From Proteiniborus sp. DW1 (GTDB taxonomy: Bacteria > Bacillota > Clostridia > Tissierellales > Proteiniboraceae), in contig NZ_FMDO01000062.1 in the NCBI RefSeq assembly GCF_900095305.1, forward strand, positions 1 to 64,000: a stretch of 64,000 nt of DNA, written 5' to 3'. A program made the position numbers and the translations under genes. Of this stretch, positions 5,815 to 34,790 are shown piece by piece. The notes beneath the pieces were generated by a model. That model was given only the letters and a program-made list of their open reading frames with translations. It was not told where the DNA came from and ran no database searches. Position 1 is the stretch's first letter; the number at the start of each line of letters is the position of its first letter.

Positions 5815-5815
5815 T

Positions 5816-6574: not shown

Positions 6575-6581
6575 AGATGTT

Positions 6582-13819: not shown

Positions 13820-13821
13820 TT

Positions 13822-14295
13822 CTACTCCCCTCCCTTTAAATCTTTAGCTGCCTTCTCTACAGCATTTACTATTTTATTATAACCAGTACAACGGCAGAGG
13901 TTTCCAGATATGGCTTCTCTTATTTCACTTCTATTTGGTGAAGAATTTTTATCTAATAATGCCTTTGCTGATAATACCATTCCAGGTATACAGAATCCAC
14001 ATTGAACTGCACCTTCATCTAAAAATGCCTGTTGAATAGGATGTATCTTTTCTCCCTTGCTTAAACCTTCTATAGTAAGTATTTCTTTTCCTTCTGCTTG
14101 AAAAGCCATTACAAGACATGAAGCCACAGTTTCACCATCCATAATTACTGTACATGCTCCACACTCGCCTTCTCCACAGCCTTCTTTTGTTCCTAGTAGC
14201 CCTAATTTATCTCTTAAGACATCTACGAGCCTCATATCTTCTTCGATTTCCACTTTATGAACTATACCATTTACATTAAGCTCTATTTTTTTCAT
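13822..14295 (-). CDS. Xanthine dehydrogenase 2[2Fe-2S] subunit
   Basis: A 157-residue iron-sulfur subunit. The N-terminal plant-type ferredoxin cluster motif GCGEGECGACTV is at about residues 40-51 with a further Cys near 60; the second cluster, in the four-helix domain, shows CGFCIPGM near 98 and NLCRCTGY near 132. It passes electrons from the molybdenum centre to the FAD subunit. It begins 36 bases after the FAD-subunit gene and ends 2 bases before the molybdenum subunit gene, so the four genes form one operon in the order FAD, Fe-S, Mo-N, Mo-C. Confidence 0.93.
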   Translation of the reverse strand: MKKIELNVNGIVHKVEIEEDMRLVDVLRDKLGLLGTKEGCGEGECGACTVIMDGETVASCLVMAFQAEGKEILTIEGLSKGEKIHPIQQAFLDEGAVQCGFCIPGMVLSAKALLDKNSSPNRSEIREAISGNLCRCTGYNKIVNAVEKAAKDLKGGE

Positions 14296-17241: not shown

Positions 17242-19056
17242 TTACCTAACTACTGGATCAAGTATTTCAAAGTTATCTACGTCAAGTAAGCCTTTGTCGC
17301 TTATTTTCCATTTTGGACTTGTAGATAAAGCTAAAAACGAAACGTGCATAAATGGAGCATGTAACGTTCCACCTAGCTGATTTTTTACAGTTGCCTCTAA
17401 AGCTGCTATTTTAGCACTTACTTCTGGACCAGTTAATTCATCTGTTATAAGTCCTCCAACTGGAAGTGCTAGTTCATCTAATATTCTACCATTATTAGCT
17501 ACAGCAACTCCGCCGCCCATTTCTATAACTCTATTTACAGCAACTACCATGTCTCTTAAATTAGTTCCTGTTACTGTTATATTATGCGTATCATGGGCAA
17601 TTGACTGAGCAAATGCACCTTGCTTCAATCCAATTCCTTTTACCATTGTCTTACCGATGTTTCCATTACGTCCATATCTTTCTAAGTTGGCTAAGTATAT
17701 TACGTCTTGGTTGACATCAGCTTCTACTACACCTCTATTAACTCTAACTTGAGCTTCACCAGTTCCTGTTAGGTTTTGATCAGGTATAGCCTGGATATAT
17801 CTAACTGTAGCAGTATTTCCCTCTGCCCTAATTTCTAAATCTGCTTCAGTAATAGGCGCTCTTTTCACTGAGTTTTTAACTACATCAGGATAAGTGTATT
17901 TTGGTAAATCTATTAATAGCTGTCCCTGTGAAGCTACTAATTGTCCTTTTATAAATACAGCCTCTACAGTCATTTCTTTAAGGTCACTGATAACAGCTAT
18001 GTCTGCTACTCTTCCTGGTAAAAGAGCTCCTCTATCATCTAGACCCCAATAAGTTGCAGGGTTGATTGTTGCCATTTGTATAGCTTCTATTGGGTCTACC
18101 CCTTCTCTTATTGTTCTTCTGATAATATCATTCATATGACCATATTTTTCTAAGTCCTCTGCAACCATGTCGTCTGAAACTAAGATAAGTCTTCTTGAAT
18201 CTAGTCCCTCTTCAGTCACAGCTCTTATACATTCAGCCATATTTCTTTGAGTAGAACCTTCTCTCATAAATACATATACGCCCTGTCTTAGCTTTTCAAT
18301 ACACTCTTCCTTAGTTGTTGTTTCGTGGCAGGAACAAGTTCCACCACAGCATATTATGTGAGCTGCTAAGTCAGCACCAAATAATTCCGGAGCATTCCCA
18401 TCAACTGGCTTTCCTAAACTCTTAGCATAAGTAGTTGAAGTCAATAAGTCTGTTATTATTTCTGGTGTATTTTTATATACATGCTTAGCAAGAGAAAATC
18501 CTTGTAGTTCTCCTATACCGAATATGTTTGGATAATTTAATAAGTCCTCCATATCCTTAGAATTTACATCAACACCTGCTGTCTCTAAACTTGGAGCATC
18601 AGGGGTTAAAGCTGGAACTTGTAGTCTTACATAGTTTGGTACTACATTACATTCGTCGGCCATAGCCTTCATAGCTACTGGTCCCAATGCATTACCTATT
18701 TCATGTGGGTCAGCTATTAAAGTTGTTGTACCAGAAGGTATAGATAATCTAGAAAACTCAGTAATAGTCAACATACTACTTTCAAAGTGCATATGTGAAT
18801 CCATAAATCCTGGTGATAGATATAAGCCTGTTACATCTACTACCTTTGTATCTGGTCCTATTAGTGATTTACAATCACCAACAAGTAGTATATAGTCTCC
18901 CTTTATAGCTATATCTGCTGTGTACACTTCTCTAGTTATTACATTTATCACATTACCGTTGTGAAGTACTATATCAGCAAAGTGTTTATCTGACATAAGT
19001 ACATCTATTAACTCTCTATATTCTATTGCTCTTTTTACATCTTGTGGCTTTAGCAA
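17242..19056 (-). CDS. BMC-associated adenine-deaminase paralogue (candidate 4-aminoimidazole deaminase)
   Basis: A 604-residue amidohydrolase of the Ade family, last gene of the shell operon (21 bases after the BMC-P gene). Metal motif HMH is at residues 88-90, ADPHEI near 115-120, SCHETTTKEE on strand 6 and VSDDMVAED for the strand-8 Asp. The strand-5 motif that is DGHGPE in the true Ade of this window is DGNAPEL here: the metal-ligand His is Asn221. This loss of a core ligand, the longer N-terminus and the position inside a BMC operon argue that it is not an ordinary adenine deaminase. The pathway needs a deaminase for 4-aminoimidazole, chemically analogous to adenine deamination. That assignment is inference; adenine deaminase remains the default alternative. 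Confidence 0.8.
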   Translation of the reverse strand: MLKPQDVKRAIEYRELIDVLMSDKHFADIVLHNGNVINVITREVYTADIAIKGDYILLVGDCKSLIGPDTKVVDVTGLYLSPGFMDSHMHFESSMLTITEFSRLSIPSGTTTLIADPHEIGNALGPVAMKAMADECNVVPNYVRLQVPALTPDAPSLETAGVDVNSKDMEDLLNYPNIFGIGELQGFSLAKHVYKNTPEIITDLLTSTTYAKSLGKPVDGNAPELFGADLAAHIICCGGTCSCHETTTKEECIEKLRQGVYVFMREGSTQRNMAECIRAVTEEGLDSRRLILVSDDMVAEDLEKYGHMNDIIRRTIREGVDPIEAIQMATINPATYWGLDDRGALLPGRVADIAVISDLKEMTVEAVFIKGQLVASQGQLLIDLPKYTYPDVVKNSVKRAPITEADLEIRAEGNTATVRYIQAIPDQNLTGTGEAQVRVNRGVVEADVNQDVIYLANLERYGRNGNIGKTMVKGIGLKQGAFAQSIAHDTHNITVTGTNLRDMVVAVNRVIEMGGGVAVANNGRILDELALPVGGLITDELTGPEVSAKIAALEATVKNQLGGTLHAPFMHVSFLALSTSPKWKISDKGLLDVDNFEILDPVVR

Positions 19057-19077: not shown

Positions 19078-19362
19078 TTACTCACTAATAAATTCCTTAT
19101 ATACATCCATATTATCTACTATGCCTACAATAGCAGCGTCTATTGCAGAGTTTTTCTTATCTGCCGCATTTCTTGATGCAGTGCCTGTTGCGAAAATCAC
19201 TACTTCACCTATACCTGCACCTACTGTATCTACTGCTATTAGTGGCTTTCCTGAAGGCTTAGAATCTATGTCAATAGGTTGTGTTATTAAAAGTTTACTC
19301 CCTACTAGACTTTCGCTTTTTCTTGTTGCAACTACCGTACCTACAACTCTGCCTAATTGCAT
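19078..19362 (-). CDS. BMC-P pentameric shell protein (EutN/CcmL family)
   Basis: A 94-residue protein of the EutN/CcmL family that forms pentamers capping the vertices of bacterial microcompartments. The start MQLGRVVGTVVATRKSESL and the LLITQPID, AVDTVGAGIGEVVIFATG and SAIDAAIVGIVD blocks are diagnostic. It sits between the flavoprotein and the deaminase paralogue. It is the only pentamer gene in the window, enough to close an icosahedral shell together with the BMC-H proteins. No alternative identity is likely. Confidence 0.95.
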   Translation of the reverse strand: MQLGRVVGTVVATRKSESLVGSKLLITQPIDIDSKPSGKPLIAVDTVGAGIGEVVIFATGTASRNAADKKNSAIDAAIVGIVDNMDVYKEFISE

Positions 19363-19379
19363 TTTATCACTCCCTTACT

Positions 19380-20219
19380 CTAATGTCCCTTGACTATTTT
19401 AATTCCTAGCTCTTTTGCCCTGTCATATGCTAGAGGAGTTATAATTGATCCTATAGGTACAGTCACTTCATTGTTGATGGTTTTCATGTTAATTAAGTCT
19501 TTTTCAGTTATAACCTGACGCGTACTATGGCTTTCTCCAGCAACTGTATTTTGTGAGCTTTGCCCAGTAACAGTAGTGGTTTCGTCCATTGGACTGTCTC
19601 TGAAGACATTTAACATCTCTAACACATAATCTTTCTTATCAACGCTTTTTATTCCCATCATCTGAAGTTTTTCTACGTAATCATTCATTATTTGCTGGAG
19701 CATTGGTACTTTAGATCTGTTCCCCCTATAAGCAAGTACATTGCTAAAGTCCATAAGTATCTTCTTGCCATGCCATAGCCCCTGCCATAATAAAGTTGAT
19801 ATAAAACAATCCTGTATACCTAAGGCTAGTTTAGTAGCAGTGTCTTGGGTCAGCATAGGTACTATAATACCGTCTACACTTTCTAAAATTTCGCCAAAGA
19901 TTAATTTGTCCTTTTGTGTATAAACCTTATCTGTTTGTAGGGTAGATTTTATAGAAGCTATTCCTTGCTCACCAATAATTTCTTCCCCATTTTCAGTTAA
20001 GGCAATATCAAAAGTAAAACCATAGCGCCTTGCTTTTGAAAGTTCCCTAAGTGACTCATTTAGTCCAAAGTTAGTTCCTGTAAATACGGCTAAAATATGC
20101 TGATTTACATAGTCTTGTGGCTTACATCTGAAATCGGCTCTTTCCTTTGGACTATGACCACCATTTAATTTTTGCACCAGTTGACTAATTATGTCACTGG
20201 TTTGGTTGTATTTTTCCAT
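19380..20219 (-). CDS. BMC-operon flavoprotein with encapsulation-type N-terminus
   Basis: A 279-residue protein. The core (about residues 30-200) looks like the flavoprotein superfamily of UbiX, phosphopantothenoylcysteine decarboxylase and dipicolinate synthase subunit B: AVFTGTNFGLNESLRE near the N-terminus and LLWQGLWHGKKILMDFSN later. Residues 5-19 (NQTSDIISQLVQKLN) form a short amphipathic helix before a Gly-Gly linker, the layout of BMC encapsulation peptides. A Ser/Thr-rich linker (about 210-235) leads to a C-terminal domain with VPIGSIITPLAYDRAKELGI. Flavoproteins of this kind occur in several BMC loci with unknown roles. It might bind FMN or deliver prenyl-FMN to UbiD. Function not assigned. 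Confidence 0.7.
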   Translation of the reverse strand: MEKYNQTSDIISQLVQKLNGGHSPKERADFRCKPQDYVNQHILAVFTGTNFGLNESLRELSKARRYGFTFDIALTENGEEIIGEQGIASIKSTLQTDKVYTQKDKLIFGEILESVDGIIVPMLTQDTATKLALGIQDCFISTLLWQGLWHGKKILMDFSNVLAYRGNRSKVPMLQQIMNDYVEKLQMMGIKSVDKKDYVLEMLNVFRDSPMDETTTVTGQSSQNTVAGESHSTRQVITEKDLINMKTINNEVTVPIGSIITPLAYDRAKELGIKIVKGH

Positions 20220-20283: not shown

Positions 20284-20562
20284 CTATTCGTAGTTTTTAA
20301 GAATCACTCTTTCAACTTCTGAGTGTGGTCTTGGAATTACATGTACTGAATGTAACTCTCCTACTGCTCTTGCAGCTTCTGCACCAGCATCTGTTGCAGC
20401 CTTAACAGCACCTACATCTCCTCTCACCATAACTGTTACAAGACCAAAACCAATTTTATCATATCCCACTAAAGTAACATTTGCTGCTTTAACCATAGCA
20501 TCTGCTGCTTCAACAGCACCTACTAAACCTTTAGTTTCTACCATACCTAACGCTTGACTCAT
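20284..20562 (-). CDS. BMC-H hexameric shell protein (canonical)
   Basis: A 92-residue single BMC-domain protein nearly colinear with PduA/EutM/Ccm[43 protein letters not shown] and [11 protein letters not shown]. The loop lining the hexamer pore reads KIGFG, where propanediol shells often have KIGSG, so the pore is lined by a bulkier residue. It follows the extended BMC-H gene by 19 bases. Likely the main facet tile. No paralogue-specific extension is present. Confidence 0.95.
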
Positions 20563-20581: not shown

Positions 20582-20977
20582 TTACTTTGTAGTTGTCTTT
20601 TTTTTACTTTCTTCAGTATTAGCTTTTTTATCTTCATTTTCCTCTTTTTTTGATTCAACTTTTTGGTTATCTTTCTTAGATTTTAAGTTCTTTTCAAATA
20701 TTGAAATTAATCTATCTACTTCTTCATGTGGTCTAGGTATCACATGACCAGATACAACTTTACCAACTCTATTGCCAGCAGACACTCCAGCTTCAACAGC
20801 TGCCTTAACTGCGGCTACTTCACCTGCAATGTTAATAGTAACACTTACAAGCTTATCTACACCAATTACCTTCTCAACTCCTACAAGCTTCACATCTGCT
20901 GCCTTACTTGCAGCATCTAATGCTGTAATGGCTGCAGTTAATCCAACTACCTCGATTAATCCAAGAGCTGATTTCAC
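20582..20977 (-). CDS. BMC-H shell protein with charged C-terminal tail
   Basis: A 131-residue protein. Residues 1-90 are a BMC-H domain (LGLIEVVGLTAAITALDAAS, AVKAAVEAGVSAGNRVG, HVIPRPHEEVDRLI). The pore-loop region reads EKVIGVDKLVSV and lacks the usual glycine pair, so the pore is probably distinct or occluded. Residues about 95-131 form a Lys/Glu-rich disordered tail that could project from the shell or bind cargo or nucleic acid. Codons of the tail are AAA/GAA-rich. Domain identification is secure; the role of the tail is unknown. Confidence 0.93.
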   Translation of the reverse strand: MKSALGLIEVVGLTAAITALDAASKAADVKLVGVEKVIGVDKLVSVTINIAGEVAAVKAAVEAGVSAGNRVGKVVSGHVIPRPHEEVDRLISIFEKNLKSKKDNQKVESKKEENEDKKANTEESKKKTTTK

Positions 20978-21002: not shown

Positions 21003-21542
21003 CTATAGTAAGGAGCCCTTTTTTCCTATTGAGTTCAAAGAAACCTTAGGAATATAAGCTTCTAAATTGTTTATTACTCCTGTTTTTACATATACATCTT
21101 TCGTATTTTGTTGTTGCGCTACTTGATTATCTACAGTACTTACTTGATTGTTTGATTTTTTCACCTTGCTAGCTAAGTCATTTAGAGTCATCATAGTGTT
21201 TGATTTGTTGTCAATAGAATTACTGTTTTTCGGCTTTACATTTCCTTTAACTAAATCTTCAAGCCTAACTTTCTCGAATGTATTTACTCCACTGTTATAC
21301 TCTGCTGGCTTAGATACTGATTTAGATGCTCTCTCAGATAATGAATTAAGAGTATCTAAAGTTCTAGAAGGTCCAGTAGCTTTTCCTAAATTCTTATTCA
21401 TAACATTCAGTAGTAGTTGTTCGTCTTTTTGTCCTAATCCTGATATAGAATAAGTGTTTTTTGCAGAATTACTTCTTGTCTCGTTTATTTTACTACCTTG
21501 AGTAATGTTATTCATAATCACCCTTGCCAACGGGTTAGCCAT
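21003..21542 (-). CDS. Disordered protein between shell genes, candidate BMC scaffold
   Basis: About 179 residues, no family recognised. I start at the ATG at 21542 because GGGTGGTGA just upstream is a good ribosome-binding site; the upstream GTG codons lie inside that site. The chain is rich in Asn, Ser, Lys and Thr, and has no predicted fold. Short amphipathic helices are spaced along it: residues 3-16 (NPLARVIMNNITQG), 40-53 (DEQLLLNVMNKNLG), 92-99 and 118-129, plus a final NNLEAYIPKVSL block. Its place between BMC-H genes and the pattern of short helices joined by flexible linkers recall carboxysome scaffold proteins such as CsoS2 and CcmN. It may link cargo to shell. Inference only. Confidence 0.6.
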   Translation of the reverse strand: MANPLARVIMNNITQGSKINETRSNSAKNTYSISGLGQKDEQLLLNVMNKNLGKATGPSRTLDTLNSLSERASKSVSKPAEYNSGVNTFEKVRLEDLVKGNVKPKNSNSIDNKSNTMMTLNDLASKVKKSNNQVSTVDNQVAQQQNTKDVYVKTGVINNLEAYIPKVSLNSIGKKGSLL

Positions 21543-21561
21543 TTTATTCACCACCCTTTAG

Positions 21562-21828
21562 CTAATCTAACATTTTATCTACTTCGTCATGAGGTCTAGC
21601 AATGACATTTGTAGATATAATTTCAGCTAAGCCCTTTACTACTTCTGTTGCGTTATCAACGGCTGCTTTTACTGCTGCTACTTCACCTGATACTATTACA
21701 GCAACGACTCCAGAGCCGACAAAGTTCACATCAACTATGTGTACATCAGCTGACTTAACCATAGTATCAGCTGCCTGGATAGCAGCCACTAAACTTCTGG
21801 TTTCTACCATACCTATGGCCTGTCTCAT
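21562..21828 (-). CDS. BMC-H hexameric shell protein
   Basis: An 88-residue single BMC-domain protein: AIGMVETRSLVAAIQAADTM, FVGSGVVAVIVSGEVAAVKAAVDNA and NVIARPHDEVDKML. The pore segment reads NFVGSG, different from the other two BMC-H proteins in the operon, suggesting that the three tiles pass different small molecules. It lies 19 bases after the UbiD gene and directly before the disordered protein. The tight coupling to UbiD supports the view that the decarboxylase is cargo. Confidence 0.95.
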   Translation of the reverse strand: MRQAIGMVETRSLVAAIQAADTMVKSADVHIVDVNFVGSGVVAVIVSGEVAAVKAAVDNATEVVKGLAEIISTNVIARPHDEVDKMLD

Positions 21829-21847: not shown

Positions 21848-23212
21848 TTATTTTTTCATTCCTGGGAAATATTTTTGAATATCTATTTTCCCCTCAAATC
21901 CAGGAATCACTGCCATTTCATAAAAATGTGCTTTCTCACCTAAAGGCTTTGTAGCATCGATTCCCATTTTATCTGTAACTCCACGAGCCACATGGGATGC
22001 TTCTAATCCTGAACCTAAAGCTCCTGGAACTATTACCACATCCTGTGAAGCTTGAACTCTAGAAGCTAGTGCATGCTCTACACTTTTTACATTATATATA
22101 TCAACATCTTCATCTACTATTACCACATGCTTAATATCATAAAATGCACCAAGTGCGCCTAATATTGCAGACTTGCCATCTCCTTCTTTCTTCTTGCTTA
22201 TAGAAATAATAGCATGTAATCTGCATCCTCCGCCAACAGTTATGTTTACATCCTTTACATCTACCATGTTCTTAAGAGCCGCATATAGTTCTGCTTCTCT
22301 AATAAGCCCATTAGCAAGATGTTCCTCTCTACAAGGGAAGGCATGTTGGAATATAGGGTTATTTCTATGCATAATAGTCCTTACTTCCATAACTGGATTT
22401 GGGGCAACATCTCCATAGTAGTTCATTAATTCACCAAATGGTCCTTCAACTTCTCGCCTATTTGGAACTAATACTCCTTCGAGAACCATCTCTGCATATG
22501 CTGGAACTTCTAAATCAACAGAGTGGCATTTTACAAGCTCAAGAGGTTCACCCCTTAAAGCACTATCAACCTCATACTTGTTAAGACCATACTTTCTAGA
22601 GCCTATTTGAGATGCTAGAAGGAAAGTTGCATCATAACCAAGTACTACTGCACACTCTAACGGTTTATTCATTTTTTCAAACTCTGCAAATTGCTCCCTT
22701 AGTGCAGGAGAATGACCAGATATAAGTGCATTTATAATATTTCCTTTATGGACTTGAAATCTTCTAACTGCCATATGTGTATAACCTGTTTCAGGCTCTC
22801 TTACTATGAGCATACCTGCTGTTATGAAACTAGATGCATCTTTTTCATGAGAAGTAGGTACTGGTAACATTCTTTGTATATCAATATTTCTAGTAATGAT
22901 ATTTTCTTTTATTGGCCCATTACTTACTAACTTTGCAGGTTGAGGATTTGCTATTGCATTCATGTATTTAAATATTCTTTCTTCTGGTGTAGTATCGGTC
23001 ATCATGTAATAGAGTTCTCTATTTCCATAAAGCCCTCCTACTACAGGCATATCGTATCCTTTTACTCTGTTAAACAGTATAGGCTTTTCATTTTCAAAAT
23101 ATCTTAATACTGCTCCTAGTTCATATTTAGGATCTACTTCTACATTACATACTTCTAGCTCGCCAAGCTGCTCTAGCTTACTTAGAGTAGCCCTTAGCAT
23201 TTGTTTTTCCAT
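21848..23212 (-). CDS. UbiD-family decarboxylase (candidate 4-amino-5-imidazolecarboxylate decarboxylase)
   Basis: About 454 residues of the UbiD superfamily, whose members use prenylated FMN for reversible (de)carboxylation of aromatic or unsaturated acids. Conserved features are REPETGYTHMAVRRFQVH (cofactor-binding region) and VEGPFGELMNYYG, which carries the active-site Glu residues. I start at the ATG at 23212 because GGAAGGAGGGAG lies immediately upstream; the longer frame overlaps UbiX. Encoded between ubiX and the BMC genes. In the clostridial imidazole pathway 4-amino-5-imidazolecarboxylate must lose CO2, and this is the only decarboxylase in the cluster. The substrate is inferred from the pathway. 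Confidence 0.87.
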   Translation of the reverse strand: MEKQMLRATLSKLEQLGELEVCNVEVDPKYELGAVLRYFENEKPILFNRVKGYDMPVVGGLYGNRELYYMMTDTTPEERIFKYMNAIANPQPAKLVSNGPIKENIITRNIDIQRMLPVPTSHEKDASSFITAGMLIVREPETGYTHMAVRRFQVHKGNIINALISGHSPALREQFAEFEKMNKPLECAVVLGYDATFLLASQIGSRKYGLNKYEVDSALRGEPLELVKCHSVDLEVPAYAEMVLEGVLVPNRREVEGPFGELMNYYGDVAPNPVMEVRTIMHRNNPIFQHAFPCREEHLANGLIREAELYAALKNMVDVKDVNITVGGGCRLHAIISISKKKEGDGKSAILGALGAFYDIKHVVIVDEDVDIYNVKSVEHALASRVQASQDVVIVPGALGSGLEASHVARGVTDKMGIDATKPLGEKAHFYEMAVIPGFEGKIDIQKYFPGMKK

Positions 23213-23232
23213 ACTCTCCCTCCTTCCAAATC

Positions 23233-23787
23233 TTATTCTCCCCATCTTTTTGATATATTATGTTCTATGCCAAGCTGGTCTAACACTCTACCAATAATTG
23301 AACCCACAATATCTCCTATGCTTTCAGGATGATTATAAAAGCCTGGCGTTGGAGGTAATATTGTTGCACCTGCTTGTGCTAGCTTCAACATGTTCTCTAA
23401 ATGTATGGTGCTAAGTGGGGTTTCTCTAGGAACTATAACTAGCTTCCTTTTCTCTTTTATTATAACATCCGCAGCTCTTGTCAACAAATTATCTGACATA
23501 CCATGTGCAATGGATGCTACAGTTTTCATTGAGGAAGGAATAATCACCATTGCATCTGTTTTAAATGAACCACTTGCTATGGGTGCTGCAAAGTTTCTAT
23601 TATCATGATAATAAGTTGCTAACCCCTTTAACTCTTCAAGGGTTACACCACATTCATGTTCAACTACATATTCTCCCATGGTTGTCACTACAAGGTGAGT
23701 CTCTATGTTTAGCTCCTGAAGCACCTTTAAAAGAGCTAATCCATATATGCCACCACTTCCACCAGAGATCCCAACGATTACTCTCAT
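23233..23787 (-). CDS. ubiX: UbiX flavin prenyltransferase
   Basis: About 184 residues of the UbiX/Pad1 family, which attaches a dimethylallyl group to FMN to make the prenyl-FMN cofactor of UbiD enzymes. The N-terminal GISGGSGGIYGLALL is the flavin phosphate loop; VIIPSSMKTVASIAHG and IVPRETPLSTIHLENMLKL are family blocks. I choose the ATG at 23787 with GAGG upstream over the frame start at 23802. It precedes ubiD by 20 bases, so cofactor maker and user are co-expressed. A hairpin-rich 190-base leader separates it from the amidase gene. Confidence 0.92.
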   Translation of the reverse strand: MRVIVGISGGSGGIYGLALLKVLQELNIETHLVVTTMGEYVVEHECGVTLEELKGLATYYHDNRNFAAPIASGSFKTDAMVIIPSSMKTVASIAHGMSDNLLTRAADVIIKEKRKLVIVPRETPLSTIHLENMLKLAQAGATILPPTPGFYNHPESIGDIVGSIIGRVLDQLGIEHNISKRWGE

Positions 23788-23856
23788 ATGACATTTCCTC
23801 ACTTTCTGCTATTGGCCACAAATAAGTATAAGTCATAAATACTTTTATTATTTAGG

Positions 23857-23976: not shown

Positions 23977-24588
23977 TTATTTAACTTTGTTTTCTGGATC
24001 TCCTGCTCCTGCCCATGGATCTAAGCCTTTTTCAAATGCATCGATGTATTCATCTATAGTCATAACCTTTGTGAATATACTTAGGTCAACTAATCCATGT
24101 TGATGTTGTTCTTCTGTTTTTGAGTGAACTCCATCACTTAAAGTAATTACTTTATAAGCATTAGCTAGAGCATCAGCAGCTGTAGATCTAACACATACGT
24201 TTGTCCAAACTCCAGTTACTACCACTGTATCTATGCTTTCCTCTCTTAGGAATAGGTCTAAGTCTGTATGCCAGAATGCACTGTGTCTTCTCTTTTGAAT
24301 TATATATTCACCTTTTTCAGGATATAGTTCTTTTATGAAGTCAGAACCCCAAGTTCCCTTAACAGCGTGAACCGGTCTTACTCTGAAGTCTGCATCATTT
24401 TCTCTATGAGCTTCTTGAACATGAACTAGTTGAACATCGTCTTTTCCTTGAGCATTTCTTTCTCTTACCCATTTAAATAGCTTTTGAAGATTTGGAACTA
24501 TTTCTTCTCCACCTGGGCATCTTAAAGGTGCCTTTTCTCCTATGAAGTCATTTAACATGTCTATAACTACAATTGCGTGTTTTGCCAT
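23977..24588 (-). CDS. Isochorismatase-family cysteine amidohydrolase (candidate ureidoimidazole amidohydrolase)
   Basis: A 203-residue protein of the isochorismatase/nicotinamidase superfamily. The catalytic triad is visible: D10 in VVIDMLNDF, K99 in IIQKRRHSAF and C132 in VTGVWTNVCVRSTAADA. Relatives hydrolyse N-carbamoyl groups (N-carbamoylsarcosine amidase, ureidoacrylate amidohydrolase). It is encoded directly after the hydantoinase-type ring-opening enzyme. In the xanthine pathway the second step removes the carbamoyl group from 4-ureido-5-imidazolecarboxylate, giving CO2 and ammonia, so this protein is the natural candidate. Family certain; substrate inferred. Confidence 0.87.
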   Translation of the reverse strand: MAKHAIVVIDMLNDFIGEKAPLRCPGGEEIVPNLQKLFKWVRERNAQGKDDVQLVHVQEAHRENDADFRVRPVHAVKGTWGSDFIKELYPEKGEYIIQKRRHSAFWHTDLDLFLREESIDTVVVTGVWTNVCVRSTAADALANAYKVITLSDGVHSKTEEQHQHGLVDLSIFTKVMTIDEYIDAFEKGLDPWAGAGDPENKVK

Positions 24589-24692: not shown

Positions 24693-26291
24693 TTAGTATG
24701 TTATTGTTCTAGGTAATACTTGTATACTTTGTCTCTTAACAAATTTACCAAATCCAGGTTTAACCTTGATTCCTCTAATACTTCTAATATGTTGATCTAT
24801 AACCTCTGGATGATTCTTTCTATAGCTATTTTCGTATTCTGCACTGTATAGCTGAGGATATAGATCAAAGTGCTCTTTATATTTTTCTGCTACACCTTCT
24901 GGATAGTCATGAACTAACTTCTTAAGGTCTTCATCAGTCATTTCTGATAGTACGCTAGCATCCTCATCTACATATACTAGATGACCACGAACTATAGTCT
25001 TAACTACTTTTCCCTTTAGCTCCATACCTTCTAGTGGTGTATATCCACACATTGAAGCTTGTTTCTTAGGATCTATAGTCCAAGTCTTATCAAGATCTAT
25101 AATTGTAAAGTCTGCATCTGAACCTATGTTTAAAGCACCTTTCTTTGGATATAGTCCATAGTGCTTAGCAGCATTAGTAGATAGTATATCAACAAGTTTG
25201 CTTAATGAAATTCTTCCTTTATTGTATCCTTCACTTACTATAACAGGAACCATTGTCTCAACACCTGGGATTCCTGGGAATGCTGTCCAGATAGTTGTTC
25301 CTTCTTTTATCTTTTCACTTTCTAGTTCGTATGGAGCATGGTCTGTAGCTATGAAATCTATGCTACCATTTCTAATTCCTTCCCATTGCTCTTCGTTATC
25401 TCTCTTAGTTCTTAGAGGTGGAGCAATCTTAGCGTTTGCACCATGAATTGTCATAGATTCTTGATAATTTAATGTTAGATAGTGAGGACATGATTCTGAA
25501 GTTACATTTAAGCCTCTCTTCTTAGCTTCCCCTACTAATTTAGCACCTATTCCAGTACTCATGTGTACTATGTGTAGTCTAGCTCCTGAAGCTTCTGCAA
25601 AGCTGATTCCTAATTCTATAGCAACCTTTTCAGCTAATTCCATTCTTGCTTCTGCCCATGCTGGACCATCCATTCTTCCTTCTTCTCTGAATTTTTTAAC
25701 ATAAAAGTCACACATAGCGAAGTTTTCAGCATGAATTCCTATTGGAAGGCCTGTCTTAGCAACTGCCTTAAAGCACTCATACATTTCTGGATCAGTAACT
25801 CTTGGATAAGTTGGAACTGAAGGAGTCATGTATACTTTGAAAGCTACTACTCCTGCATCAGCTTGTTCTTGAACATTGTGTAGTCTGTTTTCTCTTACAT
25901 CTTCTCCAGTTACTCCACCCCAAAGTGCAAAGTCAACTAATGCTTGAGGTGCACATAAATCTTTCTTTAAATTTAATTGATCAACGCTTCTTACAGATGG
26001 AACTGAACAGCATGGCATATCTATAACTGTTGTTATTCCACCTGCTGCAGCTGCGGCTGTACCAGTTAAAAAGTTCTCTCTATGTGGGAAACCTTGATAC
26101 ATAAAGTGAGTGTGTGAATCAATACATCCTGGTAAAGTTAAATGTCCGTGAGCATCTATTGTATTCTTTGCTTCTATTCCATCAATACAATCTGTGAAAC
26201 CTGCTATTTTTTCATCTTTAACCAAGATGTTAGTTAATACTGTATAGTCCCCTTGAGGGATTCTAGCATTTTTAAGAATTAAATCATACAT
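24693..26291 (-). CDS. Hydantoinase/allantoinase-type amidohydrolase (candidate xanthine amidohydrolase)
   Basis: About 532 residues of the cyclic amidohydrolase family (dihydropyrimidinase, allantoinase). The binuclear metal site is complete: H60 and H62 in DSHTHF, K152 in VVAFKVYMT (the carbamylated lysine), GIHAENF, LHIVHMST, and the catalytic Asp in FIATDHAPYE. The start at 26291 is set by AGGAGG 9 bases upstream; the longer frame begins in that site. Relatives open cyclic ureides by amide hydrolysis. Xanthine ring opening to 4-ureido-5-imidazolecarboxylate is the first step of the clostridial pathway and the same chemistry. Allantoinase is the main alternative, but no other ureide gene (allantoicase, ureidoglycolate enzymes) is present. 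Confidence 0.87.
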   Translation of the reverse strand: MYDLILKNARIPQGDYTVLTNILVKDEKIAGFTDCIDGIEAKNTIDAHGHLTLPGCIDSHTHFMYQGFPHRENFLTGTAAAAAGGITTVIDMPCCSVPSVRSVDQLNLKKDLCAPQALVDFALWGGVTGEDVRENRLHNVQEQADAGVVAFKVYMTPSVPTYPRVTDPEMYECFKAVAKTGLPIGIHAENFAMCDFYVKKFREEGRMDGPAWAEARMELAEKVAIELGISFAEASGARLHIVHMSTGIGAKLVGEAKKRGLNVTSESCPHYLTLNYQESMTIHGANAKIAPPLRTKRDNEEQWEGIRNGSIDFIATDHAPYELESEKIKEGTTIWTAFPGIPGVETMVPVIVSEGYNKGRISLSKLVDILSTNAAKHYGLYPKKGALNIGSDADFTIIDLDKTWTIDPKKQASMCGYTPLEGMELKGKVVKTIVRGHLVYVDEDASVLSEMTDEDLKKLVHDYPEGVAEKYKEHFDLYPQLYSAEYENSYRKNHPEVIDQHIRSIRGIKVKPGFGKFVKRQSIQVLPRTITY

Positions 26292-26351: not shown

Positions 26352-26388
26352 TTAATAAGTTGGAGAGGGAGTCCCTCCAACTTATTAA
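26352..26388 (-). terminator. Hairpin after fhs
   Basis: A perfect 14-bp stem (TTAATAAGTTGGAG with its complement, loop of nine) 12 bases past the fhs stop, without a U-tract on the minus strand. Confidence 0.4.
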
Positions 26389-26399
26389 TTTATATCAAT

Positions 26400-28070
26400 T
26401 TAGAACAGTCCAACTATAGTGCCATCTGGAAGTATATCCATCTTGTTTGCTGCCGGCACCTTTGGTAACCCTGGCATTGTCATTACTTCTCCCGTTAGCG
26501 CTACTATAAATCCAGCACCTGCTGATAATCTTAACTCTCTTACTGTTATTGTGAATCCTTTTGGTCTTCCTAAAAGTGATGCGTCATCTGATAGAGAGTA
26601 TTGTGTTTTAGCCATACAAATTGGCATTTTATCTAGTCCTAAATCAGCTAATGTTTTAGCCATTTTTTCTGCACCTTTTGTGAATACTACTCCATCTGCT
26701 CCGTAAACTTCTTTTGCAATCTTTGTAATCTTATCTTTTATTGAAAGCTCTACATCATATAGCGGTTTGAAGTTAGATTCTTTACCTTCTACTACTTCTA
26801 TTACCTTCTTAGCTAATTCAATTCCACCTTCTCCACCATTAGCCCATACATCTGATATAGCTACTTCTGCTCCTGATGCCTTTACTTTTTCAAATACTAG
26901 ATTTAACTCTGCTTCTGTATCTGTCGGGAATTTGTTAATTGCTACTATTGATGGTACTCCAAATTTAGCTACATTTTCTATATGTTTCTCTAGGTTTTCT
27001 AATCCCTTTTCTAGAGCTTCTAGGTTTTCTGCTCCTAAGTCTGCTTTTGCTACTCCACCATGCATCTTAAGCGCTCTTACAGTAGCTACTATAACTGCTG
27101 CCGCTGGCTTTAATCCTGCAAATCTACACTTTATATCAAAGAACTTTTCTGCTCCTAGGTCTGCTCCGAATCCTGCTTCTGTTACTGCGTAGTCTCCTAG
27201 TTTTAGCGCCATTTTTGTTGCTAGTACACTGTTACAGCCATGCGCTATGTTCGCAAACGGTCCTCCGTGAATTAAAGCTGGAGTATTTTCTAGTGTTTGT
27301 ACTAGGTTAGGCTTTATAGCATCTTTTAGTATTAGAGCTAGTGCTCCTGTAGCTTCTAAGTCTTTAGCTCTTACTGGATTTCCTTCCATGTTATATGCTA
27401 CTACCATGTTTCCTAGTCTTTCTTTTAGATCTTCTAGGCTTGTTGCTAAACATAATATAGCCATTATTTCTGATGCTACTGTTATATCAAATCCATCTTG
27501 TCTAGGTACTCCGTCAGCTTTTGCTCCTAGTCCTATTACAATATTTCTAAGAGCACGATCATTCATATCTACTACTCTTTTCCAAACTATTCTTCTTGTG
27601 TCTATATTTAATGCATTTCCTTGATGTATATGGTTATCTAGTAACGCTGCTAGTAGACTATGTGCTGAAGTAATTGCGTGGAAGTCTCCTGTAAAGTGTA
27701 GATTTATGTCTTCCATTGGTACTACTTGTGCGTATCCTCCACCTGCTGCTCCACCTTTTACCCCAAATGATGGTCCTAATGATGGTTCTCTTAATGCTGT
27801 TATAGTCTTTTTGCCTAATTTGTTTAGCCCCATGCTTAGACCAATGTTTGTTGTTGTCTTTCCTTCTCCTGCTGGTGTTGGATTTATTGCTGTAACTAAT
27901 ATTAGTTTTCCATCTGGCTTATCCTTTAGTCTGTCAAATACGTCTAATGACACTTTCGCCTTGTATTTTCCGTATAATTCTAATTCATCATCTAGTATTC
28001 CTATTTGCTCAGCTATTTCTGATATAGGTTTCATTTTAGCTTCTTGTGCTATTTGAACGTCTGTTTTCAC
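26400..28070 (-). CDS. fhs: Formate-tetrahydrofolate ligase
   Basis: A 556-residue protein colinear with clostridial formyl-THF synthetase. The ATP loop [15 protein letters not shown] is at about residues 65-79, followed by [23 protein letters not shown]-type segment near 95-117 and the C-terminal [22 protein letters not shown] signature in shorter form. The start is GTG with AGGAGGAG upstream. In purine fermenters the enzyme runs in the ATP-forming direction from 10-formyl-THF to formate, the main substrate-level phosphorylation. It lies 77 bases after the formiminotransferase gene, which supplies the one-carbon unit. Confidence 0.97.
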
Positions 28071-28147: not shown

Positions 28148-29092
28148 TTATTCCATTAAGTGTGTTTCTAATATTTGGCTTCTTCTAAAACCTTCTAATC
28201 CTAAGTAGTACTCTAGAGAGTTAACTATATATTCTAATTTAACTGGTCCTACTATTTCTGAACCTGTTACTGGAATACCATATCTTTTAGCTTCTTGTTT
28301 TACTAATTCAAATACTCTATATATTGGAGTGTTTGCACAGTCAAACATGTTTACTGATACTACTACTCCTTCTCTCTCTGGGAATTTGATTCCTACTGCT
28401 CTTGTTGTTGAGAATCCACCGCTTGGTCCTCTTACTGCTTTTGCTATTTTTTTAGCAATTTCTACATCTTCTGTTGCTAAGAATACGTTATATGCTGTCA
28501 ATCCTTCTGCTTCTGCGCTTACTATAGTTGCTCCTGCAGTGCTTGAAAGTAGGCCGTCTTTGCTTAGATCAGGTTTTCTTGATTCATATTCTGCTTTTCT
28601 TGATTCGTCATCTTTGATTTCTTCTAGTAAAGCTTTCAATCCTTCATATTGCCCTTTTCTTATGAAAGCTAGCGCTCTTCTTTCTTCTGTTCTTGCATTT
28701 TCTGCTGCAAAGAATATTGGCACACCAGTTCTTTCATGTAATTCTTTACCTATTTCTTCTGCTAATTTAACACATTCTTCTACTGTAATATTTTTGAATG
28801 GGAATAGAGGGATAGTATCTTGAGCACCAATTCTTGGATGTGTGCCCTTTTGCTCTTCCATGTTGATTAATTCTATGGATTTTGCTGCCATATTAAGTAA
28901 TGCTGTCTTAAGAGGTGCTGGCTCTCCTATAACTGTAACTACTGTTCTGTTAAAGTCATGCTCTGGCTCATAACTTACAAGCTTAACTCCTTCTACCTTT
29001 CTAACTTCATCTACTACTGCTTCAATAACTTCTTTTCTTCTACCATCACTAAAATTAGGTACTGCTAAAATGTACTGTTTGTCTAAAGACAT
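28148..29092 (-). CDS. Formiminotransferase (glutamate/glycine type)
   Basis: A 314-residue protein matching the N-terminal transferase half of animal formiminotransferase-cyclodeaminase: AVPNFSDGRRKEVIEAV at the start, then GTHPRIGAQDTIPLFPF, FFAAENARTEERRALAFIRKGQ and GIKFPEREGVVVSVNM. The cyclodeaminase half is a separate gene at 32.3 kb. The usual annotation is glutamate formimidoyltransferase, for histidine breakdown. Here no histidine-degradation gene is nearby and the neighbours are purine enzymes, so formiminoglycine is the likelier donor, as described for C. cylindrosporum and C. acidurici extracts. First gene of the long minus-strand cluster; the start follows AAGGAGG. Confidence 0.92.
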   Translation of the reverse strand: MSLDKQYILAVPNFSDGRRKEVIEAVVDEVRKVEGVKLVSYEPEHDFNRTVVTVIGEPAPLKTALLNMAAKSIELINMEEQKGTHPRIGAQDTIPLFPFKNITVEECVKLAEEIGKELHERTGVPIFFAAENARTEERRALAFIRKGQYEGLKALLEEIKDDESRKAEYESRKPDLSKDGLLSSTAGATIVSAEAEGLTAYNVFLATEDVEIAKKIAKAVRGPSGGFSTTRAVGIKFPEREGVVVSVNMFDCANTPIYRVFELVKQEAKRYGIPVTGSEIVGPVKLEYIVNSLEYYLGLEGFRRSQILETHLME

Positions 29093-29669: not shown

Positions 29670-30365
29670 ATGGGGTTAAAATTAATTGATTTGACTCAAG
29701 ATATTTACGAAGGAATGCCTTTATACGGAATTCATCAGAAAACATTTATTATGACAAATCAAACTCACGAGCAAAGTCAAAAAGCTACTGGAAGCCCAAC
29801 TCTAGGTTTTTATGCAAGAAATCTTCTAATAAGTGAGCACTGCGGAACTCATAGCGATGCTGTCCTAGAATTTAAGCCAGGGGGAGCGGATATTATTGAA
29901 ATGCCTTTAGATTATTTCTGGGGTAGTGCTATCTGCGTAGACCTAAGTCATATAAGATATCCTAACTACATAGAAGTAAAGGATTTAGAAATGGCTGTAG
30001 CGAAATCTGGGCAAACAATTCAAAAAGGTGATATCTTTCTTATGTATACTGGTCTATACAATAGAAGTTATGGTACTCCAGAATATGAAAATTATTATAC
30101 AGGTTTAAGCTATGATGCTGCTAAATGGCTTGCAGAAAAAGGAGTAGTTAATATAGGTGTAGATGCCCCTGCTATAGATCAGACTCCAGACGACTTAACT
30201 TTTGCTGGACATTTAGTATGCGGAGAATATAACATAACTAACACTGAAAACCTATGCAATTTAGATAAAGTAGTTAATAAACGTTTCTTATATTTTGGTC
30301 TACCACTAAGAATCCGTGGAGGTACAGGTTCCCCTATAAGAGCAGTTGCATTAATAGAAGAATAG
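29670..30365 (+). CDS. Cyclase-family metal hydrolase (candidate 4-imidazolonase)
   Basis: A 231-residue protein of the cyclase/kynurenine-formamidase-like family (Zn- or Mn-dependent amide hydrolases). The signature is H57-C-G-T-H61-S-D63-A-V-L-E67-F; the family norm is HxGTHxDxPxHF, so the usual last histidine is Glu67 and the proline is missing. Downstream GHLVCGE and ENLCNLDKV match the second metal/acid region. It is divergent from the purine cluster and shares its regulatory gap. After assigning other genes, the pathway lacks an enzyme opening 4-imidazolone to formiminoglycine; this hydrolase fits that amide-cleaving step. Substrate is inference. Confidence 0.82.
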   Translation: MGLKLIDLTQDIYEGMPLYGIHQKTFIMTNQTHEQSQKATGSPTLGFYARNLLISEHCGTHSDAVLEFKPGGADIIEMPLDYFWGSAICVDLSHIRYPNYIEVKDLEMAVAKSGQTIQKGDIFLMYTGLYNRSYGTPEYENYYTGLSYDAAKWLAEKGVVNIGVDAPAIDQTPDDLTFAGHLVCGEYNITNTENLCNLDKVVNKRFLYFGLPLRIRGGTGSPIRAVALIEE

Positions 30366-30417: not shown

Positions 30418-32091
30418 CTACTTGTTTAATAACTGTTTAATTTTAAGTGCTATTTCTAAGTTAAGTCGGTCGTTGGGATTTTCAAGGTCCATATTAGTTA
30501 TATCTTTTATTCTTTGGATTCTGTATAGAACCGTATTATAATGAGTAAATAGGGAATCGGACATTTTCTTTAAGTTTCCATTGTTGTCAAAATAAGCGCT
30601 AAGAGTCTTAACAAGTTCAGTTGATTTTTTTTCATCATATTCAACTAAAGGTTTTAAAGTAGAGTCATAGAATTTGATTAATTCATTCTCTATGTTATCT
30701 TGACATAATATCTTAAATATACCTAGATTTTCAAAGCTGGTGATTATGTTGTCATTCAATATTCTTCCTGTTTTTATAGCTTTAATTGAATCTAAATAAC
30801 TGTAATTAAAGTTCTCTAGTCCTTCATAGGCTCTTCCAATTCCTATTCGAAAATCTAAATCCTTAAATTTATTAATAATGTCTAAGAAATTTTTATTGAT
30901 TTCTTCTAATAACGCCTCTAATTGTGTATCTTTTTTTAGACATAGAAGTATTTGAATTCTTTCAGTTTTACTTACAACTATTGCATTGAGCCCCATTTGT
31001 TTAATGATGTTTCTTTCAATCAGGTCATGGATTTTTGTAATATGCTGCTGTGTTTGTCCAGATGCCATATCTACCCTTTTAGAGGCTTCATCATTGTTTT
31101 TTATTTTCAAAGTTATGCTTACAAATTTATCCTTCTTACCAAAGTTAAAAAATGATGCTCTCTCTAGTGCCTTCTCTACTCTTCTTTCTTCCAGTGAAAT
31201 CAGGTCATCGAAAAACTCTGATTTATATCTATTTTCAACCTCTTTAACTGAAAGCGCCTTTAATATTTCGAGGGCCATAGTTGTAGATGCAATTTCAAGT
31301 ACAGATAAGTCATATCCTCCTAGGGGAGTATTTGTAGACCAAGCAACTATATGTCCATATATACTGTCCTTAGCAACTATAGGAAATACCATTCTTTTTA
31401 TATATTTTCCTCCTATTAGCTCGTTGCTTTCTTCTAGTTTCTTTTCCTTATATCTCTCTGAAATTGGCGAAAAGCACTTGTCAGCATTCTCAAGTAGAAG
31501 CTCCTTCACTGAATCATCCACAGAGTCAAACTCAATAATTATTTCTTCTGGATATTCAAATCGAACATAGATAGGATTCTTTATACTATCGCTTATTAGT
31601 TTAACTATTTGGCTTGTATTGGCTCCCCTCAACATGGCATCCATAAATTGTTCATATATTTTTTCTATCTTCTTTAGTAGATAAGCTTGCCTATTGAATA
31701 TATCATTAAATAAGGGAGTCATTATATCAGAAAGTGGCGTAGCATAATATAGGTCTATTATAGGAAAGTTTAAATCATCTGCTAAACTTATTACTTCCTC
31801 TGAAAGAGACTCTAAATATGGATATATTTTAATGCCTATACCTGCTAATTTCTTCTTAGCACACTCTTTAATAAGCTTTTTCTGTTCTTCTATATTATCT
31901 TTTTTAAAAGAATAGGCTGTGGTTAATAAAAGCTCGCCTTCATCTACCCAGCTTAAAATATCAGGGTCTGCCATAACATTTACTTTAGATATTGTATTTC
32001 TAATTCCTTTAAACCCTGCTATAAGCTTGCAGTTTTTCATATATTCCATATTTAAAGCATCTTCTATAGTAATACCATTTTGTCTACCCAT
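30418..32091 (-). CDS. pucR: PucR-family purine catabolism regulator
   Basis: About 557 residues. The N-terminal PucR domain (about 10-130; ITIEDALNMEYMKNCKLIAG, DILSWVDEGELLLTTAY) is followed by a GGDEF-like/CdaR-type middle region and a C-terminal helix-turn-helix (LSAYFDNNGNLKKMSDSLF then HYNTVLYRIQRIKDITNMDL) of the PucR HTH_30 type. I place the start at the ATG at 32091, seven bases after GGGGGGG. It lies between two divergent intergenic regions sharing a sequence element and so is the probable regulator of both sides. In Bacillus, PucR responds to allantoin-type intermediates; the effector here is unknown. Confidence 0.93.
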   Translation of the reverse strand: MGRQNGITIEDALNMEYMKNCKLIAGFKGIRNTISKVNVMADPDILSWVDEGELLLTTAYSFKKDNIEEQKKLIKECAKKKLAGIGIKIYPYLESLSEEVISLADDLNFPIIDLYYATPLSDIMTPLFNDIFNRQAYLLKKIEKIYEQFMDAMLRGANTSQIVKLISDSIKNPIYVRFEYPEEIIIEFDSVDDSVKELLLENADKCFSPISERYKEKKLEESNELIGGKYIKRMVFPIVAKDSIYGHIVAWSTNTPLGGYDLSVLEIASTTMALEILKALSVKEVENRYKSEFFDDLISLEERRVEKALERASFFNFGKKDKFVSITLKIKNNDEASKRVDMASGQTQQHITKIHDLIERNIIKQMGLNAIVVSKTERIQILLCLKKDTQLEALLEEINKNFLDIINKFKDLDFRIGIGRAYEGLENFNYSYLDSIKAIKTGRILNDNIITSFENLGIFKILCQDNIENELIKFYDSTLKPLVEYDEKKSTELVKTLSAYFDNNGNLKKMSDSLFTHYNTVLYRIQRIKDITNMDLENPNDRLNLEIALKIKQLLNK

Positions 32092-32133
32092 TTGCATTCC
32101 CCCCCTTAAATTTTTTATATAGCAATCCCTCTA

Positions 32134-32272: not shown

Positions 32273-32908
32273 TTATAGTTTTGAATAAACTACTTTTAAT
32301 GTTTCTTCTTTAAGGTCTTTACCTTCTTTTAGTAATGCATCACATTGCTTTCTGATTTCCGCTACATAATTCTGGTCGCTTATTCCACCTAAGTTAATTA
32401 AAACGTTAAATAGTGCTCCCTCTAAGCCTGCACACGCTAATAATGCTCCAACTCCCACATCAGTGATTGCATTTGGATTCCCATAGTCTGCAAATACTTT
32501 TTGTAGTTTTAATACTTCTAATGACTCTCTAGCTGCATCAAGAGGAACTTCCATAGCCTTTTTTAAAGCTTCTTCCATTGCAGCTTTTCTTGCAGCTTTT
32601 TCTTCGTCTGTTTCTTTTGGTAACTTCAATGCTGCCATATAGTCATTAAATGCTGTTGTATCTTCATCAATCAATTCGTTTAGTCTCTCAACATGTTTAA
32701 CAACTTTTTCAAAGTTTGTATCTAATTGAGCTCTTTGGTTTTCTTCTAATGCATTATAAGCTTTCTTTCCAAAAGTCAAGTTTCCTACCATTGAAGTTAA
32801 AGCTGCACCTAAACTACTTGCTAGCGCTGATACACTTCCACCACCTGGAGCAGGCTCATTGCTTGCTACAGCTGCAACAAAATCCTTAACTGTTTTTTCT
32901 ACTAACAT
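32273..32908 (-). CDS. fchA: Formimino-THF cyclodeaminase / methenyl-THF cyclohydrolase
   Basis: A 211-residue all-helical protein of the cyclodeaminase/FchA family, equal to the C-terminal half of bifunctional formiminotransferase-cyclodeaminase. The start VKDFVAAVASNEPAPGGGSVSALASSLGAALTSMVGNLT carries the folate-binding glycine-rich turn (APGGGSVSAL). It releases ammonia from 5-formimino-THF to give 5,10-methenyl-THF, and relatives also hydrolyse this to 10-formyl-THF, the substrate of Fhs. Single-gene unit with own terminator; its promoter region shares an element with that of the formiminotransferase gene. Confidence 0.92.
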   Translation of the reverse strand: MLVEKTVKDFVAAVASNEPAPGGGSVSALASSLGAALTSMVGNLTFGKKAYNALEENQRAQLDTNFEKVVKHVERLNELIDEDTTAFNDYMAALKLPKETDEEKAARKAAMEEALKKAMEVPLDAARESLEVLKLQKVFADYGNPNAITDVGVGALLACAGLEGALFNVLINLGGISDQNYVAEIRKQCDALLKEGKDLKEETLKVVYSKL

Positions 32909-33416
32909 ATTATTCCTCCTTATGTAGTAATACTCTTACATTATTATTTATTAATTTACTACAATATATTCATTATAATAACATAAATATTGGATAATGT
33001 CTATGTGTATTTTTTACAATTAACTTCAATGAAAAATTACTTTAACTACAATCTATAACTCTTGTAAGCCTCTAATTATCTTATGTTTATTATATAATAG
33101 ATTTGATTTTTTCTTTAATTGATTAATGTTCATGTTGTTTATCCATAGCCTTTTATAGATATTTGATTTTATTGTGTATTTCTTACAAATTTTTTAAATG
33201 CTACTTTTATGACGTTTTCAAACTTCCTGTAAATTTACACATTTCCAAGGGTAGTCCACATTTATATAATTTTGAATTTTGTAATTTCCCAATTTTTAGG
33301 TCTTGCTTAAATCTAATTTATACTTTAAAATCACAACTATAATAAAAATTGTTGTTAACTTTGCTAGCATAAAGCAATCGTTTTCATCCTAAACTTTAAT
33401 GAGAGGAGCAATTATA
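32909..33416. promoter_or_regulatory. Divergent region between cyclodeaminase and xanthine permease
   Basis: About 500 AT-rich bases without coding signal. The second copy of the candidate PucR element is at 33133-33160, 225 bases from the cyclodeaminase start. A minus-strand TATAAT is present at 33089-33094 with a poor -35 box. The plus-strand promoter for the permease is not evident. No purine riboswitch core is visible. Confidence 0.45.
33133..33160 (-). promoter_or_regulatory. Candidate PucR operator, copy 2
   Basis: Minus-strand reading: ATCTATA, AAAGGCTATGGATAAA, CAACA; matches the element at 29297-29325 in order and nearly in spacing. Confidence 0.45.
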
Positions 33417-34790
33417 ATGAGTACAACAATGACAAACAAAAAAATAATTAGCGGTACTAAAGAAAAAATTGATTCCGCTGCTGGTAGCTCTAACTTACTT
33501 TACAAAATTGAGGATAGACCACCTCTTTCTGTAGCTATTCTTCTTGCATTTCAAAATATTATAGCTGCCTTTGGTGGTATCGTAGCCGTTCCTTTAGTTG
33601 TTGCAGGAGCACTAGGGCTTTCTGTTCAGGACACCGCTTTCATGGTAAGTGCAGCAATATTTGTAGCAGGTATTGCAACATTTATTCAAACAAAAGGTAT
33701 TTGGAAAATTGGTGCTAGGGTTCCTTGTATAATGGGAACAGACTTTACTTTCGTTGCGCCTTCTATCGCAGTTGGTTCTACTGCAGGACTAGCTGGAATG
33801 TTTGGTGCTACAATACTAGGTTCCTTTGTAGAAATGATTTTAAGCCGTTTCTTAAAGCCACTTATGAGATTTTTCCCGCCTGTAGTTACAGGAACAGTTG
33901 TTACACTAATAGGTTTAACATTACTTCCTGTTTCAATGGATTGGGCAGCAGGTGGAGTTGGATCAGCTGACTACGGTAGTCTTACAAACATAGTTATATC
34001 AATGGTAGTTATGATTATAATAATTTTATTGAATAGATATGCAAAAGGTATATTAAGCAGTGCTTCTATATTAGTAGGAATAGTGATAGGTTATATAATC
34101 TGTTATCCTTTAGGTATGCTGGATTTCACTGCTGTAAAAGAAGCAAGTTGGATAGCTTTCCCAAGTATATTTAAGTATGGAATAGATTTTAATCCTGTTC
34201 ATGTAATTCCATTTATAGCTGCATATTTAGTTACATCTATAGAAACAGTAGGTTGTCTAATGGCTATAGGAGAAGCTTGTGAAACAGAATTATCAGGAGA
34301 ACAATTAAGTGCAGGTTTATTAGCTGATGGTATAGGAAGTTTTATAGCAGGTTTCTTTGGAGCTGGTGCTAATACTTCATTCAGCCAAAATGTAGGACTT
34401 ATTCCTCTTACAAGAGTTGCAAGTAGATATGTGGTAATAGTAGCAGGGGTTATTCTAGGGTTACTAGGTTTATTCCCTAAATTTAGTACACTAATTGCAA
34501 TCATGCCTAATCCAGTTTTAGGAGGAGCAGGTATTGTAATGTTTGGTGTTGTTGCAGCATCTGGTATTAAGACTCTAAGTAAAGTTAAAGGAAATAACCG
34601 TAATCTGTTAATAATAGCAGTTTCTATTGGACTAGGATTAGGTACAACAATGAGACCTGATTTCTTAGCAAATCTACCAGGTGTTCTACAAAGTATTTTC
34701 TCATCAGGAATTAGTACTGGTACAGTAGTTGCACTTTTATTAAACATAATATTAAAAGAAGAAAAAGATACTGAAGAAGTTAGTGCATAG
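33417..34790 (+). CDS. Uracil-xanthine permease (NCS2 family)
   Basis: About 457 residues of the nucleobase-ascorbate transporter branch of NCS2, with LLAFQNIIAAFGGIVAVPLVV near the start and the signature GLLADGIGSFIAGFFGAGANTSFSQN-type block near residue 300, where Q/N residues bind substrate in characterised xanthine and uracil carriers. About 12-14 membrane segments. The ATG at 33417 with GAGAGGAG upstream is preferred to the frame start at 33399. Divergent from the cyclodeaminase gene and next to pucR, so xanthine or urate uptake is likely; uracil is possible. Confidence 0.92.
   Translation: MSTTMTNKKIISGTKEKIDSAAGSSNLLYKIEDRPPLSVAILLAFQNIIAAFGGIVAVPLVVAGALGLSVQDTAFMVSAAIFVAGIATFIQTKGIWKIGARVPCIMGTDFTFVAPSIAVGSTAGLAGMFGATILGSFVEMILSRFLKPLMRFFPPVVTGTVVTLIGLTLLPVSMDWAAGGVGSADYGSLTNIVISMVVMIIIILLNRYAKGILSSASILVGIVIGYIICYPLGMLDFTAVKEASWIAFPSIFKYGIDFNPVHVIPFIAAYLVTSIETVGCLMAIGEACETELSGEQLSAGLLADGIGSFIAGFFGAGANTSFSQNVGLIPLTRVASRYVVIVAGVILGLLGLFPKFSTLIAIMPNPVLGGAGIVMFGVVAASGIKTLSKVKGNNRNLLIIAVSIGLGLGTTMRPDFLANLPGVLQSIFSSGISTGTVVALLLNIILKEEKDTEEVSA

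Follow-up and report, generated by a model that had tools for sequence, protein, structure and literature searches.

A probable xanthine amidohydrolase and its conserved hydrolase partner in a microcompartment locus of Proteiniborus sp. DW1

The gene read from 26291 to 24693 of the 64,000-nucleotide stretch of Proteiniborus sp. DW1 DNA analysed here (the window) very probably encodes a xanthine amidohydrolase (xanthinase). This function had been proposed earlier from the letters of the DNA alone (the sequence-only reading) and comparative analysis supports it well: the protein falls in a separate clade, its gene forms a conserved tandem with a gene for an isochorismatase-family hydrolase, and the locus carries candidates for the other clostridial xanthine steps. 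In the known clostridial reaction, bond 1-6 of xanthine is hydrolysed to yield 4-ureido-5-imidazolecarboxylate (PMC3519856). PMC12507026 and PMC3519856 trace the pathway to Rabinowitz and Pricer (1956), and PMC12507026 (2025) credits Tong et al. (2023) with identifying the xanthinase gene cluster in Clostridia and Bacilli and gives a xanthinase kcat of 0.1 per second. The assignment is thus not new, as a cluster of this kind had been predicted in 2019 (PMC6620236) and the xanthinase cluster was reported in 2023. Our additions are modest: the boundary of the clade, the near-universal tandem, a likely exchange of two steps in the 2019 prediction, the risk of mis-naming the enzyme as an allantoinase, and two genomes that have the enzyme pair without a shell.

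The coordinates given in the sequence-only reading match the open reading frame exactly, and the strand, which it did not state, is the minus strand. The protein more likely starts at the ATG at 26291 than at a TTG further upstream (26327), because a perfect ribosome-binding site, AGGAGG, lies about 9 bases 5' of that ATG; the stop is at 24693. The metal ligands of a cyclic amidohydrolase, which had been described as intact, are all six present (H60, H62, the carbamylated lysine K152, H187, H243 and D317), in the HxH, Lys, His, His, Asp arrangement of the binuclear enzymes; in alignments they coincide with the ligands of E. coli AllB, the B. halodurans allantoinase 3hm7, the L-hydantoinase 1gkr and the D-hydantoinase 1yny and are invariant in 34 of 34 members of the xanthinase group compared. 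With a match to Amidohydro_1 and an E-value of 6.5e-83 against 1gkr, which together with 3hm7 is the nearest solved structure, membership of the cyclic amidohydrolase family is, as judged by sequence comparison, far beyond chance. Among the 25 curated models that match the protein best, the only one whose cutoff is exceeded is the broad dihydroorotase subfamily model pyrC_multi. Allantoinases, hydantoinases and dihydropyrimidinases share one general reaction, in which a cyclic amide is hydrolysed to a ureido acid.

Orthologues were sought in samples of the order, class and phylum, and 57 genomes with an orthologue were found, the source genome included; 30 loci came from named genomes of the GTDB collection (Tissierella, Romboutsia, Paraclostridium, Andreesenia and others). 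The orthologous group is sharply bounded: identity is 62-89% inside it and drops to 43% at the nearest homologues beyond. A tree was built from 98 proteins by a quick search, with SH-aLRT as the only support measure; E. coli AllB, 3hm7, 1gkr, 1yny and E. coli HyuA were among them. The group makes up one side of a branch with a support of 100, the D-hydantoinases form another clade (support of 99), and a third group holds the allantoinases of E. coli and B. halodurans. Tree placement, which had been suggested as a check on the xanthinase proposal, does not refute it: the candidate stands apart from AllB, from 3hm7 and from the D-hydantoinase/HyuA clade. Sister to the xanthinase clade (42-43% identity) are purine-linked amidohydrolases (12875-14203 in locus L166 and 9629-10951 in L167). 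Their genes adjoin those for an adenine deaminase and for a purine permease, and the genomes concerned have neither BMC-H genes nor the isochorismatase-family partner.

The name that automated models would give the protein, allantoinase, is almost certainly wrong. Allantoinases (AllB; TIGR03178; 3e74, 3hm7) share its fold family, metal ligands and ureide ring opening, and allantoinase models are its top NCBIfam matches; several orthologues even pass TIGR03178 and would be so called. The present assignment supports a function for a family prone to this mis-naming. The candidate itself, however, scores under the cutoffs (346.7 against 357.85 and 366.9 against 631), its clade is separate from the allantoinases, with about 30-35% identity and other pocket residues, and the locus is centred on xanthine. 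The remark in the sequence-only reading that allantoin genes are missing nearby holds for the neighbours examined, which are genes for xanthine dehydrogenase, the adenine-deaminase-like enzyme, a permease, UbiX and UbiD, the isochorismatase-family protein, the formiminotransferase and the microcompartment proteins. It is also very improbable that the candidate serves another pathway as a hydantoinase or dihydropyrimidinase and lies in this locus by chance. These enzymes (TIGR02033; E. coli HyuA of the reductive urate pathway) belong to the same superfamily and share its fold, metal site and reaction type, and the solved structure closest to the candidate is an L-hydantoinase, but the protein lies outside the D-hydantoinase/dihydropyrimidinase clade and below the model cutoff, and the linkage to the purine module is constant over the 57 genomes, which belong to several classes. 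Where 1yny has its substrate residues Y155, S288 and N336, 34 of 34 group members have P157, A290 and P339, so the pocket is not that of a dihydropyrimidinase. Residues specific to the clade, some of which may hold the imidazole ring, are F68, R71, C94, S99, R101, P157-P160, Y321, W335, F338 and P339. Both the allantoinase and the D-hydantoinase readings were rejected on the tree, the model cutoffs and the pocket residues. The only other long match of allantoinase/D-hydantoinase type in the genome is a 403-residue protein on another contig, probably a dihydroorotase.

The candidate is encoded together with candidate genes for later steps of the clostridial pathway, and by sequence family the window holds candidates for the whole route from xanthine to formiminoglycine; a PucR regulator, permeases and the subunits of xanthine dehydrogenase are encoded there too (Table 1). 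Three BMC-H genes and one EutN gene mark it as a microcompartment locus. The isochorismatase-family protein has the triad D10/K98/C134, is a homologue of PDB 3hb7 and is related to N-carbamoylsarcosine amidase, biuret hydrolase and RutB. The cyclase-family hydrolase is related to kynurenine formamidase and to isatin hydrolase, which opens a five-ring lactam. The split of the xanthine dehydrogenase Mo subunit looks natural, since locus L064 shows the same split, in two frames. The low-complexity protein is possibly a scaffold or encapsulation protein. The BMC-linked protein keeps its position among the loci at only 23-50% identity. A strong inverted repeat (AATAAGTTGGAGGGA ... CTCCCTCTCCAACTTATT) is found at about 26352-26389, between the FTHFS gene and the xanthinase candidate gene.

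Table 1. Genes of the xanthine locus and their predicted products (positions in the window)
Feature	Coordinates	Strand	Remarks
Xanthine dehydrogenase Mo subunit	11553..13819	-	two overlapping genes, 12542-13819 and 11553-12545
Xanthine dehydrogenase 2Fe-2S subunit	13822..14295	-	from sequence and position
Xanthine dehydrogenase FAD subunit	14332..15195	-	
Purine permease (Xan_ur_permease family)	15566..16885	-	
Adenine-deaminase-like enzyme	17242..19056	-	TIGR01178 460.6, below cutoff 472.5; candidate 4-aminoimidazole deaminase
EutN/CcmL BMC vertex protein	19078..19362	-	
BMC-linked protein	19380..20219	-	weak flavoprotein-like match, sub-threshold, E 0.0012
BMC-H shell protein	20284..20562	-	
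BMC-H shell protein, charged tail	20582..20977	-	
Low-complexity protein between BMC-H genes	21003..21554	-	without Pfam match
BMC-H shell protein	21562..21828	-	
UbiD-family decarboxylase	21848..23245	-	candidate 4-amino-5-imidazolecarboxylate decarboxylase
UbiX flavin prenyltransferase	23233..23802	-	makes prFMN for UbiD
Isochorismatase-family cysteine hydrolase	23977..24588	-	candidate 4-ureido-5-imidazolecarboxylate (N-carbamoyl) hydrolase
Xanthine amidohydrolase (xanthinase) candidate	24693..26291	-	532 aa cyclic amidohydrolase, intact binuclear metal site
Formate-tetrahydrofolate ligase (FTHFS)	26400..28070	-	
FTCD-type formiminotransferase	28148..29092	-	candidate glycine formiminotransferase
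Cyclase-family (PF04199) hydrolase	29670..30365	+	HxGTHxD motif; candidate imidazolone hydrolase
PucR-family purine catabolism regulator	30418..32097	-	
FchA-type cyclodeaminase/methenyl-THF cyclohydrolase	32273..32908	-	
Xanthine permease, PbuX-type	33399..34790	+	TIGR03173 above cutoff

In the route that we propose, a binuclear metal centre bridged by carbamylated K152 would activate water for attack on C6 of xanthine, and the N1-C6 amide would be broken to give 4-ureido-5-imidazolecarboxylate. The isochorismatase-family cysteine hydrolase, the constant partner, would next take off the carbamoyl group; UbiD, with prFMN supplied by UbiX, would decarboxylate the product; the adenine-deaminase-like enzyme would deaminate 4-aminoimidazole; the cyclase-family enzyme would convert the imidazolone to formiminoglycine by opening its ring; and folate, with the FTCD, FchA and FTHFS enzymes, would carry the one-carbon unit onward. 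Some of these steps probably take place inside a microcompartment, for which the locus itself would supply the shell proteins. We infer the substrate of the xanthinase candidate, the order of steps and the encapsulation; the later steps are predicted to follow in this order from the families of the proteins. The 2023 report reportedly describes a prenyl-FMN decarboxylase together with four hydrolases from different families, a set that fits the DW1 locus. The reaction predicted here, the pathway logic, the presence in Clostridia and Bacilli and the enzyme complement are all those of the clostridial xanthinase pathway.

The best evidence for action at the xanthine step comes from the gene next door, since xanthinase leaves an N-carbamoyl group on its product and the partner found so constantly is of the carbamoyl-hydrolase type. 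The xanthinase gene is followed by the isochorismatase-family gene, adjacent and on the same strand with a gap of 19-394 bases, in 56 of the 57 genomes, which are related, so that such counts are not independent events; in the remaining genome, G206, the two genes lie on two contigs, one of which ends within the xanthinase gene. The cyclase gene adjoins the xanthinase gene in 25 of the 57 genomes, nearly always on the opposite strand, and is adjacent to the isochorismatase-family gene in none. The relatives are a sample of genomes and many of the neighbourhoods end at contig ends or have short flanks; the wider set of pathway genes is conserved in the longer related loci. A full cyclase orthologue is missing from G788, G781 and G596, which incomplete drafts or contig ends could explain; for the same reason the presence of the cyclase without the xanthinase, or the reverse, was not used as a discriminator. 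Creatinine breakdown likewise pairs a ring-opening amidohydrolase, N-methylhydantoinase, with an isochorismatase-fold carbamoyl hydrolase, N-carbamoylsarcosine amidase (1nba), although N-methylhydantoinase belongs to a protein family different from that of the xanthinase candidate.

The tandem bears directly on the 2019 prediction, in which such a cluster of Alkaliphilus metalliredigens was assigned to a xanthine-utilisation microcompartment (Xau, formerly BUF1; PMC6620236). The DW1 locus has the components of that system, namely the BMC-H and EutN shell genes, permease, xanthine dehydrogenase, two ring-opening hydrolases, amidohydrolases, decarboxylase and formimidoyltransferase, as well as its gene order: Amet_4587 (cyclase), 4586 (formimidoyltransferase), 4584, 4583 and 4581 (decarboxylase) run parallel to the cyclase, formiminotransferase, xanthinase, isochorismatase and UbiD genes here (PMC6620236). 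By this match of gene order, Amet_4584 should be the xanthinase orthologue. PMC6620236 gives Amet_4584, whose homologues open five-atom rings, the sixth step (XauF) and Amet_4587 the opening of xanthine, so that the enzyme which we place at step 2 seemingly stands there at step 6. If this were correct, the DW1 candidate would be an imidazolone hydrolase and the cyclase-family protein would open xanthine. We consider this decidedly unlikely, because the tandem partner of the carbamoyl-hydrolase-like gene is the xanthinase gene and never the cyclase gene, and because one locus (L169) of the shell-less genome G853 contains, within the stretch examined, a tandem of just these two genes. Moreover, the reason given in PMC6620236, that Amet_4584 alone has homologues acting on five-atom rings, overlooks isatin hydrolase among the relatives of the cyclase. 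The tandem with a carbamoyl hydrolase therefore favours the xanthine step for the candidate over the sixth step, and the two ring-opening enzymes seem to have been swapped in the 2019 prediction (PMC6620236); exchanging these two steps of the published scheme is what our analysis favours.

The association with shell genes is strong. BMC-H genes are present in 41 of 41 genomes of the order that have a xanthinase orthologue, against 89 of 248 across the whole order, and in 55 of all 57 orthologue-bearing genomes. The two exceptions, G853 and G781, are of one genus; BMC-H is entirely absent from both, in which they differ from the Xau system, and each has two copies of the xanthinase and isochorismatase-family genes, one copy with UbiD too. 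Such genomes could help to show what purpose the compartment serves. In G018, a second copy of the cyclase and xanthinase genes (L176, 8696-11057) is separate from the shell locus of that genome. Residues of about 446-505 of the DW1 protein form a lineage-specific insertion of about 60 residues that precedes a tail of about 25 residues (GxxVKPGFGxFVKRQSIQxL) kept across the family. It is rather improbable that this insertion is a shell-targeting or assembly element that makes xanthinase a docked cargo enzyme. It occurs in one branch of the family and is missing from other shell-bearing lineages (L076, L077, L084/L173 and L085/L172), and thus it cannot be a general requirement. A C-terminal extension as a general mark of shell association was rejected on the same grounds, the last residues being family-wide. 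Xanthinase is also of practical interest, as engineered gut bacteria with such enzymes have been explored against high uric acid.

A few other features of the window may be recorded. No tRNA gene was found in it, and a search with Rfam found no riboswitch at the xanthinase operon; the only match in the window over the gathering score is a molybdenum/tungsten cofactor riboswitch (RF01055) at 49380-49501 on the minus strand, amid genes for Mo/W transport, cofactor and formate dehydrogenase. The formate dehydrogenase alpha gene (51877-54555, minus strand) appears as two open reading frames separated by a TGA (53509-53511); its surroundings, ...HCARL-TGA-HS..., are those of the usual selenocysteine site. 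At 3130-6592, also on the minus strand, are the genes for maturation of selenium-dependent molybdenum hydroxylases, YqeB, YqeC and MocA, with a cysteine desulfurase family protein, and these genes suggest that the xanthine dehydrogenase is of the labile-selenium type.
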